From NCBI GenBank assembly GCA_013298775.1, contig JAAFIV010000045.1:1-35265 (forward strand): a DNA stretch of 35,265 nucleotides, read 5' to 3'. Positions 2,775 through 24,520 of this stretch are shown one piece after another. A model generated the notes under the pieces. The model saw nothing but the letters and a program-made list of their open reading frames with translations. It was not told the origin of the DNA and ran no database searches. The translations under genes and the position numbers were made by a program. Positions within the stretch are counted from its first letter, which is position 1, and every line of letters starts with the position of its first letter. This stretch comes from Ignavibacteria bacterium (GTDB lineage Bacteria; Bacteroidota; Ignavibacteria; Kapaibacteriales; UBA4661).

Positions 2775-4334
2775 ATGCCTATGTTTTCTCGCTTGCGCTC
2801 TGCTTCAACCTTTGGCGTTGGTGCGTTTTTGGTGGAAATCGAAACGCACTTGGAAAATGCGCTGCCTGCTTTTGTGGTCGTGGGTTTGCCAGATTCTGCC
2901 GTGAAAGAAGCGCGGGAGCGGGTTTCGGCGGCAATTAAAAACTCGAAGTTTTTGTTTCCGAATAAGAAAATTACGGTCAATCTCGCGCCCGCCGACATTC
3001 GCAAGGAAGGTAGCGCGTTTGATTTGCCGATAGCCATTGGCATTCTGCGGGCGTGTGGGCTTATTCCCGCAACCACGCTTGCCGACGAGCTTGATAAAAC
3101 CTTGATTTTGGGCGAACTCGCGCTGGATGGCACACTGCGTCCCATTCGCGGCGCGTTGCCGATTGCGATTGAGGCGAAGAATCACGGTTTTGTGCGCGTT
3201 ATGCTGCCATCGCAGAACGCCGATGAAGCGGCAGTGGTGAGCGGCGTGGAAATTATTCCCGTCGAAACATTGCGCCAAACCGTTGAGTTCCTTTCGGCAG
3301 AAAACCGCATCGCGCCTCGCTCCATTGACCCCATGAGCCTTTTTGACCGCGCCGAATCGTACAGCATTGATTGGAACGACGTAAAAGGACAGGAAAATGT
3401 GAAGCGTGCGCTCGAAGTCTCGGCGGCAGGCGGACACAATGCAATTATGATTGGTGCGCCTGGAAGCGGTAAAACCATGATTGCCAAACGCTTGGCGACG
3501 ATTTTGCCACCGCTCACGTTGGATGAAGCTCTTGAAACCACGAAAATTCATTCCGTCGTGGGTCTGCTGCCCAGCAATGAAGCTCTTCTCACGGCACGTC
3601 CTTTTCGCGCACCGCATCACACCATATCAGATGCTGCGCTGGTGGGCGGGGGAATGGGCGTGGTGCGCCCGGGCGAGATTTCGCTTGCGCATCACGGCGT
3701 GTTGTTTTTGGATGAATTGCCCGAGTTTGCCCGCAATGTTTTAGAGGTTTTGCGCCAACCGCTTGAAGACCGCAATATCACTATCTCGCGGACAAAAATG
3801 ACGGTCAATTATCCCGCGAATTTTATGATGATTTGCTCCATGAATCCTTGCCCCTGCGGGAATTTCGGCAACCCGCACCACGAGTGTTCATGCACTCCGC
3901 AGCAAATCCAACGCTACATGGCGAAGGTTTCGGGTCCGCTTCTGGACCGCATAGATATTCACGTGGACGTAATTCCCGTGAAATACGATGAGCTTGCTTC
4001 CACGAAACAAGGCGAAAGCTCTGCGCAAGTCCGTGAGCGGGTTGTACGGGCGCGTGAGGTGCAGAAACGGCGTTTTGCCAAGCGCAAAGGTGTGTTCAAA
4101 AATGCGGATATGAGTTCGCAAGATATTCGTAAATTCTGCGTTCTGGACGCGGAAGGCGAGCAACTTATGAAACGCGCCATGACCACGATGGGCTTCTCTG
4201 CTCGCGCCTTCGACCGCATTTTGAAAGTTGCTCGCACCATTGCCGACCTCGCCGACCGCGATACGATTTTACCGCCGCACATCGCGGAAGCGATTCAGTA
4301 TCGCAGTCTCGACCGTCAGCATTGGAATGCGTAA
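2775..4334 (+). CDS. comM: ComM/YifB family Mg-chelatase-like AAA+ ATPase
   Basis: A protein of about 519 residues in the ComM (YifB) family. Family members act in natural transformation as hexameric helicases that promote branch migration. The N-terminal ChlI-like domain (about residues 1-170) carries the typical FVVVGLPD and KEARERV segments. The AAA+ core has Walker A GAPGSGKT at residues 227-234 and Walker B VLFLDE at 309-314. A cysteine-rich stretch follows (SMNPCPCG then HECSC), then the C-terminal domain of the family. The frame stays open upstream to 2706, but family alignment begins near MFSRLRSASTFGVGA, so ATG 2775 or ATG 2781 is preferred. Neither has a good ribosome binding site. 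dprA, another transformation gene, is also in this window but not adjacent. Confidence 0.93.
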   Translation: MPMFSRLRSASTFGVGAFLVEIETHLENALPAFVVVGLPDSAVKEARERVSAAIKNSKFLFPNKKITVNLAPADIRKEGSAFDLPIAIGILRACGLIPATTLADELDKTLILGELALDGTLRPIRGALPIAIEAKNHGFVRVMLPSQNADEAAVVSGVEIIPVETLRQTVEFLSAENRIAPRSIDPMSLFDRAESYSIDWNDVKGQENVKRALEVSAAGGHNAIMIGAPGSGKTMIAKRLATILPPLTLDEALETTKIHSVVGLLPSNEALLTARPFRAPHHTISDAALVGGGMGVVRPGEISLAHHGVLFLDELPEFARNVLEVLRQPLEDRNITISRTKMTVNYPANFMMICSMNPCPCGNFGNPHHECSCTPQQIQRYMAKVSGPLLDRIDIHVDVIPVKYDELASTKQGESSAQVRERVVRAREVQKRRFAKRKGVFKNADMSSQDIRKFCVLDAEGEQLMKRAMTTMGFSARAFDRILKVARTIADLADRDTILPPHIAEAIQYRSLDRQHWNA

Positions 4335-4336
4335 TT

Positions 4337-4436
4337 CCCTCACCCCAACCCCTCTCCCAGAGGTAGAGGGGCAAGGAATTAAGCCATCTTCACCCTCGCC
4401 CTCTGGGAGAGGGTCGCTCGCAGAGCGGGGTGAGGG
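4337..4436. repeat. Family B palindromic repeat, copy 1
   Basis: An approximately 100-bp interspersed repeat bounded by CCCTCACCCC on the left and GGGGTGAGGG on the right. Internal stems CCTCTCCCAGAG and CTCTGGGAGAGG can pair. It shares outer ends and internal order with the copy at 9259-9355. Its position directly after the comM stop suggests it could end up in the 3' UTR and fold as a hairpin. Confidence 0.85.
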
Positions 4437-4599
4437 TCTTAACACGGCAAAACTAGACAGGTAAAAACTTGATTTTAATCGCTTTGTAAGCAATTCATTT
4501 CCACGCTCAAAAAATTGGCAGCATTTTTGCACTGTGATTCTTGCGTGACGAAAAAGAGGGCAAATACTACAAATGTAGTTGGCAAAATGAACAACCAAT

Positions 4600-4676
4600 A
4601 GTGGCACAGACATTCTTGTTTGTGAGTGTTAGCGCGGGTTTCAGGCGATAAACACAGACAGGAATGTCTGTGCCAC
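4600..4676. repeat. Family A palindromic repeat, copy 1
   Basis: A palindromic element of about 77 bp. The left end GTGGCACAGACATTC is exactly complementary to the right end GAATGTCTGTGCCAC. The two arms flank a linker containing TGAGTGTTAGCGCGGGTTTC. The same layout recurs at 10244, 14887, 18249 and 25625. Each arm can also fold by itself through CACAGAC and GTCTGTG (degenerate in the left arm here). Confidence 0.9.
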
Positions 4677-7293: not shown

Positions 7294-7402
7294 TCCCGTC
7301 GGGCGGCTGAGGAGTAAAGAAACGCTGCCGTCCGGCGGGTGAGCCGCTTGCACAGCACTCACCGGACGGCTACTGCTCTTGTGATAACAGCCGCCCGACG
7401 AG
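7294..7402. repeat. Family C palindromic repeat, copy 1 (forward)
   Basis: An element of about 109 bp with nested inverted repeats. The outer pair is CCGTCGGGCGGCTG and CAGCCGCCCGACG; the inner pair is GCCGTCCGGCGGGTGA and TCACCGGACGGC, around a GCTTGCACAGC core. An extra outer pair, GGTCGG (about 7285) and CCGACC (about 7411), may extend the palindrome. It occupies most of the gap between the CreD-like gene and the LRR gene. Matching copies lie at 16701 and, reversed, at 24411. Confidence 0.9.
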
Positions 7403-7468
7403 ATAACAACCGACCTATTACGCTCTTTTGCAAAATAATCTCCTTGAATACTCGTTTATTTTTGTTTT

Positions 7469-9258: not shown

Positions 9259-9355
9259 CCTCACCCAACCCTCTCCCAAAGGGAGAGGGCTTCAGAGCTA
9301 GCTTCCTTCAACCCTCGCCCTCTGGGAGAGGGTCTCGCGCAGCGAGGGGTGAGGG
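9259..9355. repeat. Family B palindromic repeat, copy 2
   Basis: The second copy of the family found at 4337. It begins CCTCACCCAACCCTCTCCC and ends GAGGGGTGAGGG, with the shared central segment ACCCTCGCCCTCTGGGAGAG. The left half has its own short hairpin, CCCTCTCCC and GGGAGAGGG. It lies between the methyltransferase gene and scpA. Confidence 0.85.
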
Positions 9356-10243: not shown

Positions 10244-10320
10244 AGTGGCACAGACATTCTTGTCTGTGAGTGTTGGTGAGGGGGCAAGTGATAAACACAG
10301 ACAGGAAGTCTCAAGCCACT
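10244..10320. repeat. Family A palindromic repeat, copy 2 (mosaic arms)
   Basis: This copy has the usual left arm (AGTGGCACAGACATTCTTG), but its right arm reads CAGGAAGTCTCAAGCCACT. That arm matches the alternative arm seen at the left end of the 25625 copy (AGTGGCTTGAGACTTC). The two arms therefore pair only at their ends and near the loop. It lies between scpA and the penicillin-acylase-like gene. Confidence 0.85.
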
Positions 10321-10402: not shown

Positions 10403-13375
10403 ATGAAGCGATTTTCCTTTGCACGCCGCACACCAAGCCATATTGTGGGTATTTTGCTTGTTCTCCTCGTGTTTTGTGCGTGTGCCGCACTGTTTTCCTT
10501 TGTTGTGATGACGCGCTCCGCACCAAAAACCGATGGAAGCGAGGATGTAAGCGGTATTCAGGGCGAAGTATCCTTATTTCGCAACGAATATGGCATTGTC
10601 CACGTGATTGCTACAAACGACGCGGATGCGTACTTTGGCATCGGGTACGCCCACGCGCAAGACCGCCTTTGGCAAATGGATTTTCGTCGCCGCGTGGCAA
10701 AGGGACAGCTTGCAGCCTTATTCGGACGCTCAATGTTGGAGCATGATATATTTCTGCGCACCATGCGTTTCGACAGTTTGTCGGCGCAATTATACCGCCA
10801 AACCGCTCCCGAAGCCCGTGCCGCGCTAGAGGCATACACACGTGGCGTAAATGCGTACTTAGCGGCAAATAAAGGTCGCTTAGCGTTTGAATTTGACGCA
10901 CTTGACTACGAACCAGATGTCTGGAAGCCCGAGGATTGCTTGCTATTGCAACGTCTCTGGGCGTGGGAAATGAGTAGCGCGTTTACGCTCGACCTCACGC
11001 TTGCTGCACTTGCTGATTCGCTGGGCAAAGAGCGCGTCCTGCAACTTCTCCCCACCAGTGGCAATGCGCCCTACAACAGCGATGCCTACTACGCTCCAGC
11101 AGTTTTGGACTCGCTTCTTCCCACGAAACCCGCCTCGTTTGGTTTAGTTGGCAATGCTGCAAACCTTGTAACAATGCCGCTTCCCAGCATTGATTCTCTC
11201 GCACCCGCCAGCACAACGGCAAGCGTGAGCGCAGGAACAGTGAGTATGCGAAAGCCGTTTACAGAGGCGCAGACAAGAGTGTCCGCGCTACGGAAGTCGG
11301 CTGTAGGTAGCGCAGATACTCTTGTCTGCGCCACAGGACGCGCTGGTAAAGAGCTACACACCCTCGCCGAGCGCATCCGCACAACCCGCGAAGCAGTACA
11401 AATGCGGGGTTCAGCGATTGGCTCGAATGCGTGGGCAACGCGCCCGTCGGCAATATTTCACCAAGAAACCGATACGTTGCGAGACACCACAACGGGACAA
11501 ACACTCGTCGTGCCGCGCCTTCTGCCCGACCGCTACAAGCACGGCGCACTACTCGCCAACGACCTCCACACGCCTTTTTCCAATCCTGCAATGTTCTACG
11601 AGGCGCATATTACCTCACCTTCGCTCAATGTTGTTGGTTTTACGCTTCCCGGAATGCCGTTTGTGCTGTCGGGGCGCAATGATAAATGTTCGTGGGGCGT
11701 AGCAAATATGATGCTCGACGACACGGACTATTTCCTCGAAACAATAGATTCCACCGACCTTAAGCAATACCTCACGTCCAGCGCGGCATTGAGCAGCAGC
11801 GCGAGTGGCGGTGCGAAAGAAAAGTTTTTCTTTATTGCCGATACAATCTACGTGAAAGATTCCAGTATTGCCGTGCTAGATGCCCGCTACACCAAGCGTT
11901 CATGCGTGGTTTCGGACTTTCCTACCTTGCAAAGCGGACTTCTACGTGGCGTGAAACTCCGCTCTGGAGAAGTCCTGCGCATTGTGAATGATTCGGTACA
12001 AAACATCTCCCAGAAGCCTCTTCAAACCTTGTTTCAAAGGCAAAAACCTGAACATCGCTGCATTACATTTTCATGGACGGGACACTACATGAGCGATGAT
12101 GCTGCCGCATACTTACGTCTCAACAAGGCACAAAACCTTGCCGAAGCGCGTGTTGCCGTGCAAACAATCGGCGCACCTGCACTAAACATTGCTCTTGCCG
12201 ATACCGAAGGGAATATTGCCATGATTCCTTGTGGCTCAGTACCAGTGCGCTCTGTGAGCAGTACGCATCCAAATTTTCTTCGCAAGGGCGCGGACACAAA
12301 CGAGGCGTGGCAAGGCACAGGCGTAATGAGCGCACAAGAGCTTGGAAGCCTCGCCAATCCTCCGTCGGGGCGCGTCATTGCAGCAAATAATCATCTTCAG
12401 CGCAGCAATGCTAATGACGGACGTATGCCACCATCGTTTTTGTGGGACGCGCCCGCCCGTGCCGCCCGCGCAAGCGAGTATTTGCAGGACTTTGAGCATT
12501 TATCAGCAAATAATATGACCATTATGCAAACCGATGTGGTCTCGCACGTCGCACAGATGCTCACTGCCCAGCTTGTGAAGGAATTTTCGACGACTTCCGC
12601 AACCGCACAATTACGCCTCCAAAGCGAGCGCGAAGGCTTGAAACTTCTCCGCGCATGGAATGGCGAAATGAGTGCGACTTCTGCCGCAGCAAGCATTTAT
12701 GCGGTCTTTCTGGAACGCTACACCTACAACACCCTTTCCGACGAGCTTGGTGAAGCATTGTACAATCAATACGCAGCAATATCGCGCCTTCCCGTGCGAG
12801 CGATGCTCCACCTGACCGCCGAAGCCAGCAAGGGAAATGCGGACAGCAGCAAAGCGTGGTGGTTCGACAATAAGGCGACAAGCCGCATGGAGACTGCTTC
12901 GGAGATTATGCGCCAAAGCTATTCCGAAGCAATAGATGTGCTTCTGCGCCGCATGAATACTGATTCGGTCGCCGCTTGGCAGTATGGAAAATTGCATACG
13001 CTTACGCTTCGTCATGTTCTGAGCGAATCCATTTCGCCCGCCGTTCCCCAAAGTATCAAAAATGCCGTCGAATCAAGGAAATATGAGCTTTCTGGCGATG
13101 CGCACACGCTGTTCGGCAGCGAATGGCAAATGAGCGCACGCCTCGAAACCCGCTTCCAGCCTGTTCTTGGCTCCACAGCCCGCTTTGTATGCGATATGCA
13201 GGACACGCTCGTGTATGTGGCACTTGCGGGCGGCAATAGCGGGGAAATTTTCACCAAAGCTGCTTCTAATCAGCTTCCGCTCTGGCTCAACAACGTGATG
13301 ATTCCGCTTTCAATCAGCCGCGAAGCGCATCCGAGCTTTGAAAAACGGCTTGTTCTTGTGCCAATCACACCGTAA
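10403..13375 (+). CDS. Penicillin acylase family (Ntn-hydrolase) protein with in-frame repeat insertion
   Basis: A 990-residue protein of the penicillin amidase family (S45). Family members mature by autocatalytic cleavage before a serine that becomes the N-terminal nucleophile; substrates include acyl-homoserine lactones and beta-lactam side chains. A membrane segment (about residues 13-36) suggests export or anchoring. The A-chain signature YGIVHVIATNDADAYFGIGY and AQDRLWQMDFRRR is clear. The nucleophile is Ser341 in GSNAWA. Downstream, NDLHTPF and AANNH match the B-chain motifs. The region before Ser341 is long, low in complexity and contains a palindromic repeat in frame (residues 288-310). 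The protein is longer than the 750-850 residues common for the family. The natural substrate cannot be predicted from context. Confidence 0.92.
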   Translation: MKRFSFARRTPSHIVGILLVLLVFCACAALFSFVVMTRSAPKTDGSEDVSGIQGEVSLFRNEYGIVHVIATNDADAYFGIGYAHAQDRLWQMDFRRRVAKGQLAALFGRSMLEHDIFLRTMRFDSLSAQLYRQTAPEARAALEAYTRGVNAYLAANKGRLAFEFDALDYEPDVWKPEDCLLLQRLWAWEMSSAFTLDLTLAALADSLGKERVLQLLPTSGNAPYNSDAYYAPAVLDSLLPTKPASFGLVGNAANLVTMPLPSIDSLAPASTTASVSAGTVSMRKPFTEAQTRVSALRKSAVGSADTLVCATGRAGKELHTLAERIRTTREAVQMRGSAIGSNAWATRPSAIFHQETDTLRDTTTGQTLVVPRLLPDRYKHGALLANDLHTPFSNPAMFYEAHITSPSLNVVGFTLPGMPFVLSGRNDKCSWGVANMMLDDTDYFLETIDSTDLKQYLTSSAALSSSASGGAKEKFFFIADTIYVKDSSIAVLDARYTKRSCVVSDFPTLQSGLLRGVKLRSGEVLRIVNDSVQNISQKPLQTLFQRQKPEHRCITFSWTGHYMSDDAAAYLRLNKAQNLAEARVAVQTIGAPALNIALADTEGNIAMIPCGSVPVRSVSSTHPNFLRKGADTNEAWQGTGVMSAQELGSLANPPSGRVIAANNHLQRSNANDGRMPPSFLWDAPARAARASEYLQDFEHLSANNMTIMQTDVVSHVAQMLTAQLVKEFSTTSATAQLRLQSEREGLKLLRAWNGEMSATSAAASIYAVFLERYTYNTLSDELGEALYNQYAAISRLPVRAMLHLTAEASKGNADSSKAWWFDNKATSRMETASEIMRQSYSEAIDVLLRRMNTDSVAAWQYGKLHTLTLRHVLSESISPAVPQSIKNAVESRKYELSGDAHTLFGSEWQMSARLETRFQPVLGSTARFVCDMQDTLVYVALAGGNSGEIFTKAASNQLPLWLNNVMIPLSISREAHPSFEKRLVLVPITP
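11266..11332. repeat. Family A palindromic element inside a coding sequence
   Basis: A 67-bp palindrome whose arms GGCGCAGACAAGAGT and ACTCTTGTCTGCGCC are exact complements. It resembles the intergenic family A elements in layout: two small hairpin units in opposite orientation, with the AGACAAGA core. Its length, however, keeps the penicillin-acylase-like frame open. It encodes residues 288-310, including the segment ADTLVCA. It belongs to the GCAGATACTC arm class also seen at 33955 and, partly, in the right arm at 25702. Confidence 0.85.
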
Positions 13376-14886: not shown

Positions 14887-14964
14887 AGTGGCACAGACAT
14901 TCTTGTCTGTGAGTATTGGCGCAGGTTTCAAGCGACAAACACAGACAAGAATGTATGTGCCACT
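14887..14964. repeat. Family A palindromic repeat, copy 3
   Basis: A 78-bp copy with left end AGTGGCACAGACATTCTTG and right end CAAGAATGTATGTGCCACT, with one mismatch in the stem. The central linker (GAGTATTGGCGCAGGTTTC) matches the other copies with a few changes. It lies between the symporter and carboxylase genes. Confidence 0.9.
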
Positions 14965-18074: not shown

Positions 18075-18435
18075 AGCGCAGGAGGAGGAGGGCTGAAATA
18101 TGAGGGCTGAAGGAAGATACACAGTTTACGGAAAGTTTACACGGGTTGTTCGAGAAAGTGTATGTTTTTGTAAGGAAATCCGTTCGAGAAGCAGTATTTT
18201 CGCTATTTGTATGTTGTACGGCTCTGTACACGACAAAACTTTTTTCATAGTGGCACAGACATTCTTGTCTGTGAGTGTTAGTGCAGGTTTCAGACGACAA
18301 ACACAGACAAGAATGTCTGTGCCACTGAAGGCTGGTTTGACGCGCTTTACACAGGTTTTATCGTGTACAAAGGTTGTACGGATTGTATTCAATCTCCCAA
18401 ACATTCATTCTTCCACACTCAATCGGCACACAATT
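18075..18435. other. Intergenic stretch with one family A repeat
   Basis: About 360 bp between dprA and phoU. An open frame continuous with phoU runs back to 18100, but it passes through the family A repeat and shows no PhoU-like sequence, so it is treated as non-coding. A short direct repeat (GAGGGCTGAA) occurs twice just after the dprA stop. Otherwise nothing is recognised. Confidence 0.6.
18249..18326. repeat. Family A palindromic repeat, copy 4 (perfect stem)
   Basis: The best preserved copy: 78 bp whose first and last 25 bases are exact reverse complements, starting AGTGGCACAGACATTCTTG. The linker includes AGTGTTAGTGCAGGTTTCAG. Each arm contains its own hairpin, CACAGAC and GTCTGTG, around ATTCTT or AAGAAT. 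It serves as the reference for this family. Confidence 0.93.
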
Positions 18436-24410: not shown

Positions 24411-24520
24411 TCCCGTCGGGCGGCTGTTATCACAAGCGCAGTAGCCGTCCGGCGGGTGCTGTGCAAGCGACTCACCCGCCAGACGGCAGCGCATCTGCAC
24501 TCCTCAGCCGCCCGACGGGA
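24411..24520. repeat. Family C palindromic repeat, copy 3 (reverse)
   Basis: A 110-bp copy in the opposite orientation to those at 7294 and 16701. Outer ends TCCCGTCGGGCGGCTG and CAGCCGCCCGACGGGA are exact complements. The asymmetric TGTTATCACAAG segment is on the left here and on the right in the other two, which gives the orientation. It lies between the BatD-like gene and bshB1. Confidence 0.92.

Follow-up and report, generated by a model that had tools for sequence, protein, structure and literature searches.

A palindromic REP doublet in frame in the linker of a predicted self-cleaving acylase from an Ignavibacteria bacterium

How does a palindromic repeat come to lie within the reading frame of an enzyme that is expected to fold as a precursor and to cut itself, and what becomes of the peptide that the repeat encodes? 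These questions are raised by a 35,265-nucleotide stretch of DNA from an Ignavibacteria bacterium (contig JAAFIV010000045.1, positions 1 to 35,265; hereafter the window), in which a 67-bp palindrome lies in a gene of the penicillin-amidase family. The source genome comprises 5.19 Mb; among named assemblies, those of 'Candidatus Kapaibacterium' and Ignavibacteria are the closest to it. Repetitive extragenic palindromic (REP) units are short non-autonomous repeats, and their spread is attributed to RAYT (REP-associated tyrosine) transposases. The palindrome is very probably a mobile RAYT-type doublet of GTAG-tagged REPs, which entered the acylase gene once the sister species had split off and is tolerated in a disordered linker of variable length.

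The element and its host gene

The features of the acylase gene are as follows.

10403-13375, plus strand: penicillin-amidase (S45 Ntn-hydrolase) family gene, host of the element; 990 amino acids; PF01804 at 1.4e-155 in a profile search
11099-11422, plus strand: codons of the length-variable linker, from conserved Pro232 to Ser341 (alignment and AlphaFold)
11266-11332, no strand: in-frame 67-bp palindromic REP doublet coding residues 288-310 (exact arms and fold)
11266-11292, minus strand: first REP unit, of GTAG type (family II), differing from the 27-base consensus by 2 mismatches, translated AQTRVSAL
11293-11305, no strand: 13-base spacer separating the two REP units
11306-11332, plus strand: second REP unit, of GTAG type (family II), differing from the consensus by 1 mismatch, translated GSADTLVCA
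11339-11395, plus strand: codons of predicted helix 313-331 (AlphaFold), the fate of which decides whether the element is removable
11423-11425, plus strand: codon of the nucleophile Ser341, Ser in 110/110 alignment rows

By profile, nucleophilic serine and fold match, the window acylase is a member of the S45 N-terminal nucleophile (Ntn) hydrolase family. The acylase alignment holds 110 rows, 107 of them distinct (three duplicates). The AlphaFold model (predicted template modelling score, pTM, 0.85; 45 sequences used) predicts disorder for residues 244-311 (predicted local distance difference test, pLDDT, <50) and a confident helix at residues 313-331, between the element and Ser341. Over the whole chain, the structure that the model matches best is D-succinylase (Z 46), followed by precursors and mutants of cephalosporin acylase (Z 36-39); penicillin G acylase (PGA) matches with a Z of about 26 (beta chain), a value that is not comparable with the others because the PGA entries are split into two chains.

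An earlier note, made from the sequence alone, had described a 67-bp element with exact 15-base arms, an open frame through it, and a translation to residues 288-310 that ends 31 residues before Ser341, and these coordinates are confirmed. The reading frame 10403-13375 is uninterrupted through the element, which contributes about 22 extra amino acids (EAQTRVSALRKSAVGSADTLVCA). The arms are 92% complementary when extended to 26 bases. Folded as DNA, the element reaches -26.8 kcal/mol, compared with -10.5 +/- 2.0 kcal/mol for shuffled sequences (z = -8.0; 0/200 shuffles equal it), and for the two REP units taken singly the values are -7.3 and -7.9 kcal/mol (z of -3.2 and of -4.8).

Two REP families account for the repeats of this kind. 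A loose pattern of the repeat core covering both families finds 396 forward and 402 reverse matches in the genome, where one place may count on both strands since the core is palindromic; the reversed-pattern control finds none. In family I (AGTGGCACAGACATTCTTGTCTGTG), 88/93 pairs are convergent, with the GTGG ends outside and an offset of 53 bases in 70/88, whereas in family II (GGTAGCGCAGACACTCTTGTCTGCGCC) 35/44 pairs are divergent, with the GTAG ends inside, and 8 are convergent. The offsets of the divergent family II pairs are 53 bases in 17/35, 43 in 6 and 40 in 2, the window pair being one of these two. Among 57 units with at most 3 mismatches to the consensus, the end tetranucleotide is G in 57, T in 57, A in 56 and G in 54, a count that is partly circular in that the consensus derives from the sequences. 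As judged from sequence, the acylase element is a divergent doublet of the GTAG-tagged family II. Membership in the family of the window's intergenic repeats is therefore rejected: these copies belong to family I, a sister family, so that the match in layout given by the earlier note holds as far as the palindromic doublet goes and fails for the arrangement, which is the opposite.

A single REP unit is stop-free in 5/6 frames and the whole window doublet in 3/6. Family I doublets have on average 3.24 open frames of 6 (1.53 when shuffled) and a length that is a multiple of 3 in 73/88, and family II doublets have 2.66 (2.09 when shuffled) and such a length in 2/35. As a simple rule, the idea that REPs are kept translatable for insertion into genes is unsupported, as family I is the more open and yet is found in no called gene.

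Copies in other genes, sister genomes and RAYT loci

The following counts refer to a sample of 1.98 Mb (38% of the genome), partly picked for matches, the densities of which are not genome averages, and to genes called by a simple codon-usage caller of our own. In this sample, 118 of the 124 family II units (at most 4 mismatches) lie outside called genes and six lie inside them, against 0/208 for family I (Fisher p = 0.0025). Family II is found in frame in the acylase gene and in four further genes, which answers the earlier note's suggestion that the genome be searched for other such copies: an ABC-permease/M1-peptidase fusion (L158), NFACT (L182), cytochrome b (L305) and L147, whose product has a likely membrane segment, a barrel-like end, no Pfam match, and matches in related genomes. 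The NFACT insert is absent from 7/7 aligned orthologues, and the permease-peptidase insert from 2/2. A match in the gene of a transcription-repair coupling factor (L317; 6 mismatches) and five matches with 5 mismatches (L164, L177, L179, L192, L193) were taken as chance and left uncounted.

Within the genus, the element is absent from all seven other acylase orthologues, as the earlier note had anticipated for relatives. The same note had named the presence of the peptide in unrelated homologues as evidence against an insertion; QTRVSA occurs in the window only (1/110 rows, and 0/30 in a second set). The acylase of sister species G005 shares 88-90% protein identity with that of the window, with no stop in either gene, and its linker differs strongly from the window's. 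In G001, the acylase L037 carries REPs of its own in frame in the same linker, translated TDIPVC...TDKSVCAT; a pattern search of G001 gives 70 forward and 70 reverse matches, one of them at this linker. The expectation that the region varies in length is borne out, as the segment from Pro232 to Ser341 spans 33 to 126 residues (median 57) in the 110 rows, with L037 first at 126 and the window third at 109.

In G005 (L213:379-3231) and in G006 (L209:1-2814), RecG contains an in-frame RAYT domain between the motifs DEQHRFG and MSATPIPRT, and a piece at a contig end of G007 (L208:3-1559) has a right-hand recG/RAYT junction identical in kind to those of L213 and L209. PF01797 exceeds its cut-off in all three loci, and NF008168 (RecG) does so in L213 and L209. 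The profile of the REP-associated tyrosine transposase, NF047646, scores 74.9 bits in L213, 74.8 in L209 and 92.3 in L208, and with a cut-off of 80 only L208 passes. Inverted REPs of CACAGACA type stand on both sides of the recG RAYT and are translated VAQTFLSV and QTRMSVP (or QTRMSVL). In the sister species, the flanks consist of family I or GTAGCACAGACATTC units, those of G005 being exact family I, and no RAYT flanked by family II proper was found among the RAYT loci of the own genome and the sister species. Because a REP-flanked RAYT sits in recG of the sister species, the spread of these REPs by RAYT is likely, and the putative link to family II is one of likeness. As a single chain, if made, RecG-RAYT would place a nuclease for single strands at forks that have stalled. 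In G001, the gene of an Eco57I/MmeI-like DNA methylase contains a Y1_Tnp piece, at which it is divided into two open frames (L210:1-3189).

On the evidence of the relatives, a RAYT would have moved the doublet into the acylase gene after the split from the sister species. The net change in length would have preserved the reading frame, the insertion site would be the disordered, length-variable linker that joins the alpha part to the beta part, and the precursor would still fold and self-cleave normally. The element would be tolerated because REP units are mostly stop-free, the frame was kept and the linker that was hit is disordered and variable.

Other explanations for the palindrome itself fare poorly. 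The linker is loose in composition, which might give rise to a palindrome by chance, but the z of -8.0, the one and two mismatches to a 27-base consensus and the hundreds of copies leave such an origin with practically no probability and rule it out as a working explanation. Decay of the acylase gene, with the repeat as its mark, would fit the often disruptive nature of intragenic repeats and the strong difference between the linkers of the window and the sister; it is very unlikely in view of the 990 open codons, the retention of the nucleophile and the other invariant columns, the high identity to a sister gene that is likewise free of stops, and the good modelling of both parts. Use of the REP-encoded peptide for a purpose, as a folding aid, in the regulation of self-cleavage or as an mRNA hairpin, is hardly more credible. 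In its favor, minus-strand units in genes read AQTRVSALP-like in 4/4 cases and plus-strand units GSADTLVCA-like in 4/4 (at most 6 mismatches, L317 excluded), a consistency that is weak because the frames of a doublet are linked, one of three frames meets TAG, and about five genes are independent. Against it, no other orthologue in the genus has the element, and every other insert-bearing acylase has a different insert.

Further repeats are present in the window. For the family I copies on both flanks of the acylase gene, the comparison of the sisters clearly gives presence or absence.

4605-4672, no strand: family I (GTGG-type) REP doublet, intergenic, convergent
10249-10268, plus strand: family I unit lying between scpA and the acylase gene, part of a doublet that has decayed; missing at this place in sister G005
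14892-14959, no strand: family I REP doublet, intergenic; a copy at the equivalent place in sister G005
18254-18321, no strand: family I REP doublet, common to sister G005; intergenic by the gene caller, with an open frame from 18100 that crosses the doublet

The permease-peptidase gene (L158:3045-6902, residues about 310-356) also holds, in frame, a repeat of a third family, whose translation is PSPLGRGLGEG; the orthologue L218 of G002 has a similar insert at the same linker, and there are further matches within long open frames. By eye, window positions 4332-4441 and 9268-9333 resemble this third family. A longer inverted-repeat element is present in two copies, at 7294-7403 and 24411-24520, with TCCCGTCGGGCGGCTG ends 78 bases apart.

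The linker in distant acylases and the fate of the peptide

Exact palindromes with arms of at least 12 bases occur five times in the linkers (18.8 kb) and twice elsewhere (248 kb) in the 107 acylase genes (binomial p = 3.2e-5); of the latter two, one falls in an N-terminal stretch that is poorly shared and the other in a conserved region. The threshold of 12 is one of five tried, for which the counts in linkers and in the rest are 8 and 34 (10 bases), 5 and 10 (11), 5 and 2 (12), 3 and 1 (13) and 2 and 1 (14). The count was prompted by the window; when the window is left out, four of six palindromes lie in linkers (p about 3e-4, hand calculation). No palindrome with arms of at least 12 bases was found in the other internal variable loops (5.7 kb vs 4.7 kb, columns of <50% occupancy).

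Repeats of the respective genomes occupy this linker in 5/107 acylases, namely those of the window, L037, L068, L105 and L126, whose record names are Kapaibacterium-like (two), Ignavibacteria, Acidobacteria (Sulfotelmatobacter) and Rhodospirillales. The linker of L068 (Ignavibacteria) holds a GTAG palindrome that is found at 19 places in its genome, itself included. In L105 (named Sulfotelmatobacter), the insert is a repeat about 120 bases long at 4330-4452, with 43 genome matches including itself; it is in frame and lies about 13 residues before the nucleophile. The relative L351 (78% identity over the beta part) lacks the insert, and the linkers measure 97 residues in L105 and 54 in L351. 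The linker of L126 (named Rhodospirillales), which was found by reading the longest linkers, contains a palindromic repeat that matches its genome 17 times forward and 25 times in reverse and has exact arms shorter than 12 bases; inspection by eye covered linkers only. The palindrome in the L104 linker is a candidate repeat. The linker peptides of L356 and L139, VILSEARVSRAESKDPYPA and RSFDSCPQGDGFAKV, are putative repeat translations by their likeness to known ones, and no second copy was found in the DNA examined.

Several results weigh against the account of a RAYT-driven gain tolerated in the linker. Sister G005 offers no clean empty site: it holds a short tandem repeat (ATTTCCGCTACCAGC) at the position of the element, so the gain cannot be read base by base and a loss in the sister is possible. 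No target-site rule was found. The two Y1_Tnp loci of the own genome, unlike the REPIN/RAYT systems (PMC3116915), have other hairpins around them and none of these REPs in the 3.3 kb examined per locus. Recurrence in linkers is patchy, because in a hold-out from the family of the L105 genome (29 loci besides the query's own, 27 of them full-length) palindromes with arms of at least 12 bases number 0 in the 27 linkers and 1 elsewhere; pooled with the 107 genes, p becomes 8.4e-5. The contrast between the two families rests on the gene caller, since a looser test, which accepts any stop-to-stop frame of at least 150 codons with 40 codons on each side, puts 27/236 family I and 19/127 family II matches in open frames. 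The hairpins at the two RAYT-like loci (L161 and L162) belong to two further families, and the L161 copy has an in-frame stop.

Whether the peptide persists in the mature enzyme depends on where the precursor is cut. The earlier note had taken the segment before the serine of penicillin acylases to be a spacer that is cut away. This holds for PGA-family precursors, which lose a spacer through two cleavages (PMC3461476, PMC2845550), but the spacer has only 9 residues in Thermus, compared with 37 in Alcaligenes and 54 in E. coli (PMC3461476); in MacQ, the cavity contains the spacer peptide (PMC5566955). If the cutting resembles that of E. coli PGA, the element would be removed, and if it resembles that of Thermus PAC, the element would be kept as a loop.

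The odds between these outcomes are judged near even. Disposal by autoproteolysis, with the element in a long PGA-like spacer of roughly residues 250-340 that is gone before the enzyme is mature, is possible, at somewhat less than an even chance. It accords with the two-step release of the spacer in the PGA family, with the five acylases that have same-genome repeats in this linker, and with the freedom of other variable loops of similar total length from such palindromes, the inspection by eye having covered linkers only. It is unproved, because the spacers of the family span 9 to 54 residues, without conservation of length, and because helix 313-331 separates the element from Ser341; moreover, over the whole chain D-succinylase and the precursors of cephalosporin acylase match best, PGA having no comparable Z. 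Retention stands just short of an even chance: a short spacer like that of Thermus PAC would cover about residues 332-340, the mature alpha chain would have helix 313-331 at its C-terminus, and the peptide may stay in that chain as a loop. In the model, nine residues lead from the end of the helix to Ser341, the length of the Thermus spacer, and alignment columns 320-339 are filled in 98-99% of rows, against 5 to 64% for columns 250-309 by ten-residue blocks. However, the structural aligner gives end points only, which leaves the equivalence of the helix to a mature alpha chain putative, and the L105 insert lies only about 13 residues before its nucleophile. Tolerance of the doublet needs no disposal in either case, because the inserts in NFACT, cytochrome b and the permease are carried with no known self-cleavage, which also speaks against disposal.

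A broader proposal appears unlikely, although it deserves mention. Linkers of self-cleaving acylases would be a protein-level dump site, where varied palindromic mobile repeats land repeatedly in different phyla, are translated and are excised by autoproteolysis; in this genus, the related RAYT borne by recG would keep its own REPs under selection for translatability. If this were true, the gene would carry a mobile element and the mature enzyme would not.

Relation to known systems

The preferred account, a mobile GTAG REP doublet tolerated in a disordered linker, places the element in a known kind, since in-frame GTAG REPs have already been published (PMC3733652). That 2013 survey describes GTAG-tagged REPs within genes, in frame, with dimers or groups coding 20-30 amino acids, reports that two recB genes of Xanthomonas were hit by different REPs at roughly one site, and suggests flexible linkers or loops as the reason for a neutral effect. 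The acylase element shares with those repeats the GTAG end, the hairpin, the dimers and the in-frame units. The list of phyla with GTAG repeats in PMC3733652 omits Chlorobi and Bacteroidetes, which are named there for CGTC repeats, and its main text (additional files lying outside the scope) contains none of the words 'acylase', 'amidase' and 'autoproteolytic'.

The earlier note had likened the element to the palindromic elements of Rickettsia. The likeness holds in that both are palindromic and lie in frame in unrelated genes (PMC10969869, PMC3733652), five of them here, and fails at the end motif: the Rickettsia elements end in CGTC, measure about 150 bp (PMC10969869) and have no associated transposase (PMC3733652, Table 1), whereas the acylase element has a GTAG end. 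REPINs likewise consist of two inverted REPs (PMC3116915), and a RAYT flanked by REPs exists in the sister species. TnpA-REP subclass 2.4 occurs in Bacteroidetes, among others (PMC6006769); in that survey, REPs are found within tnpAREP genes, whereas here they lie within host genes, and a few unexpectedly long proteins were dropped from it as fusions or annotation errors. The PGA spacer also precedes the serine and varies in length (PMC3461476, PMC2845550), but it is excised there, and removal is only hypothesised here.

In the literature consulted, mostly other than subscription papers, no account was found of REPs in acylase linkers or proteins, nor of a RAYT with RecG; the sole paper naming both RecG and RAYT has, in its accessible text, RecG in the references only. 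It may thus be new that repeats recur in acylase linkers and that a RAYT lies within recG. The window documents the in-frame insertion of REPs for a bacterial group not named for GTAG repeats in the survey of 2013 (PMC3733652), with sister genomes that lack the inserts. The finding bears on whether self-cleaving proteins can carry mobile DNA without cost to the mature product, a question that is wider than one gene because five acylases of varied lineage have genome repeats in this linker.

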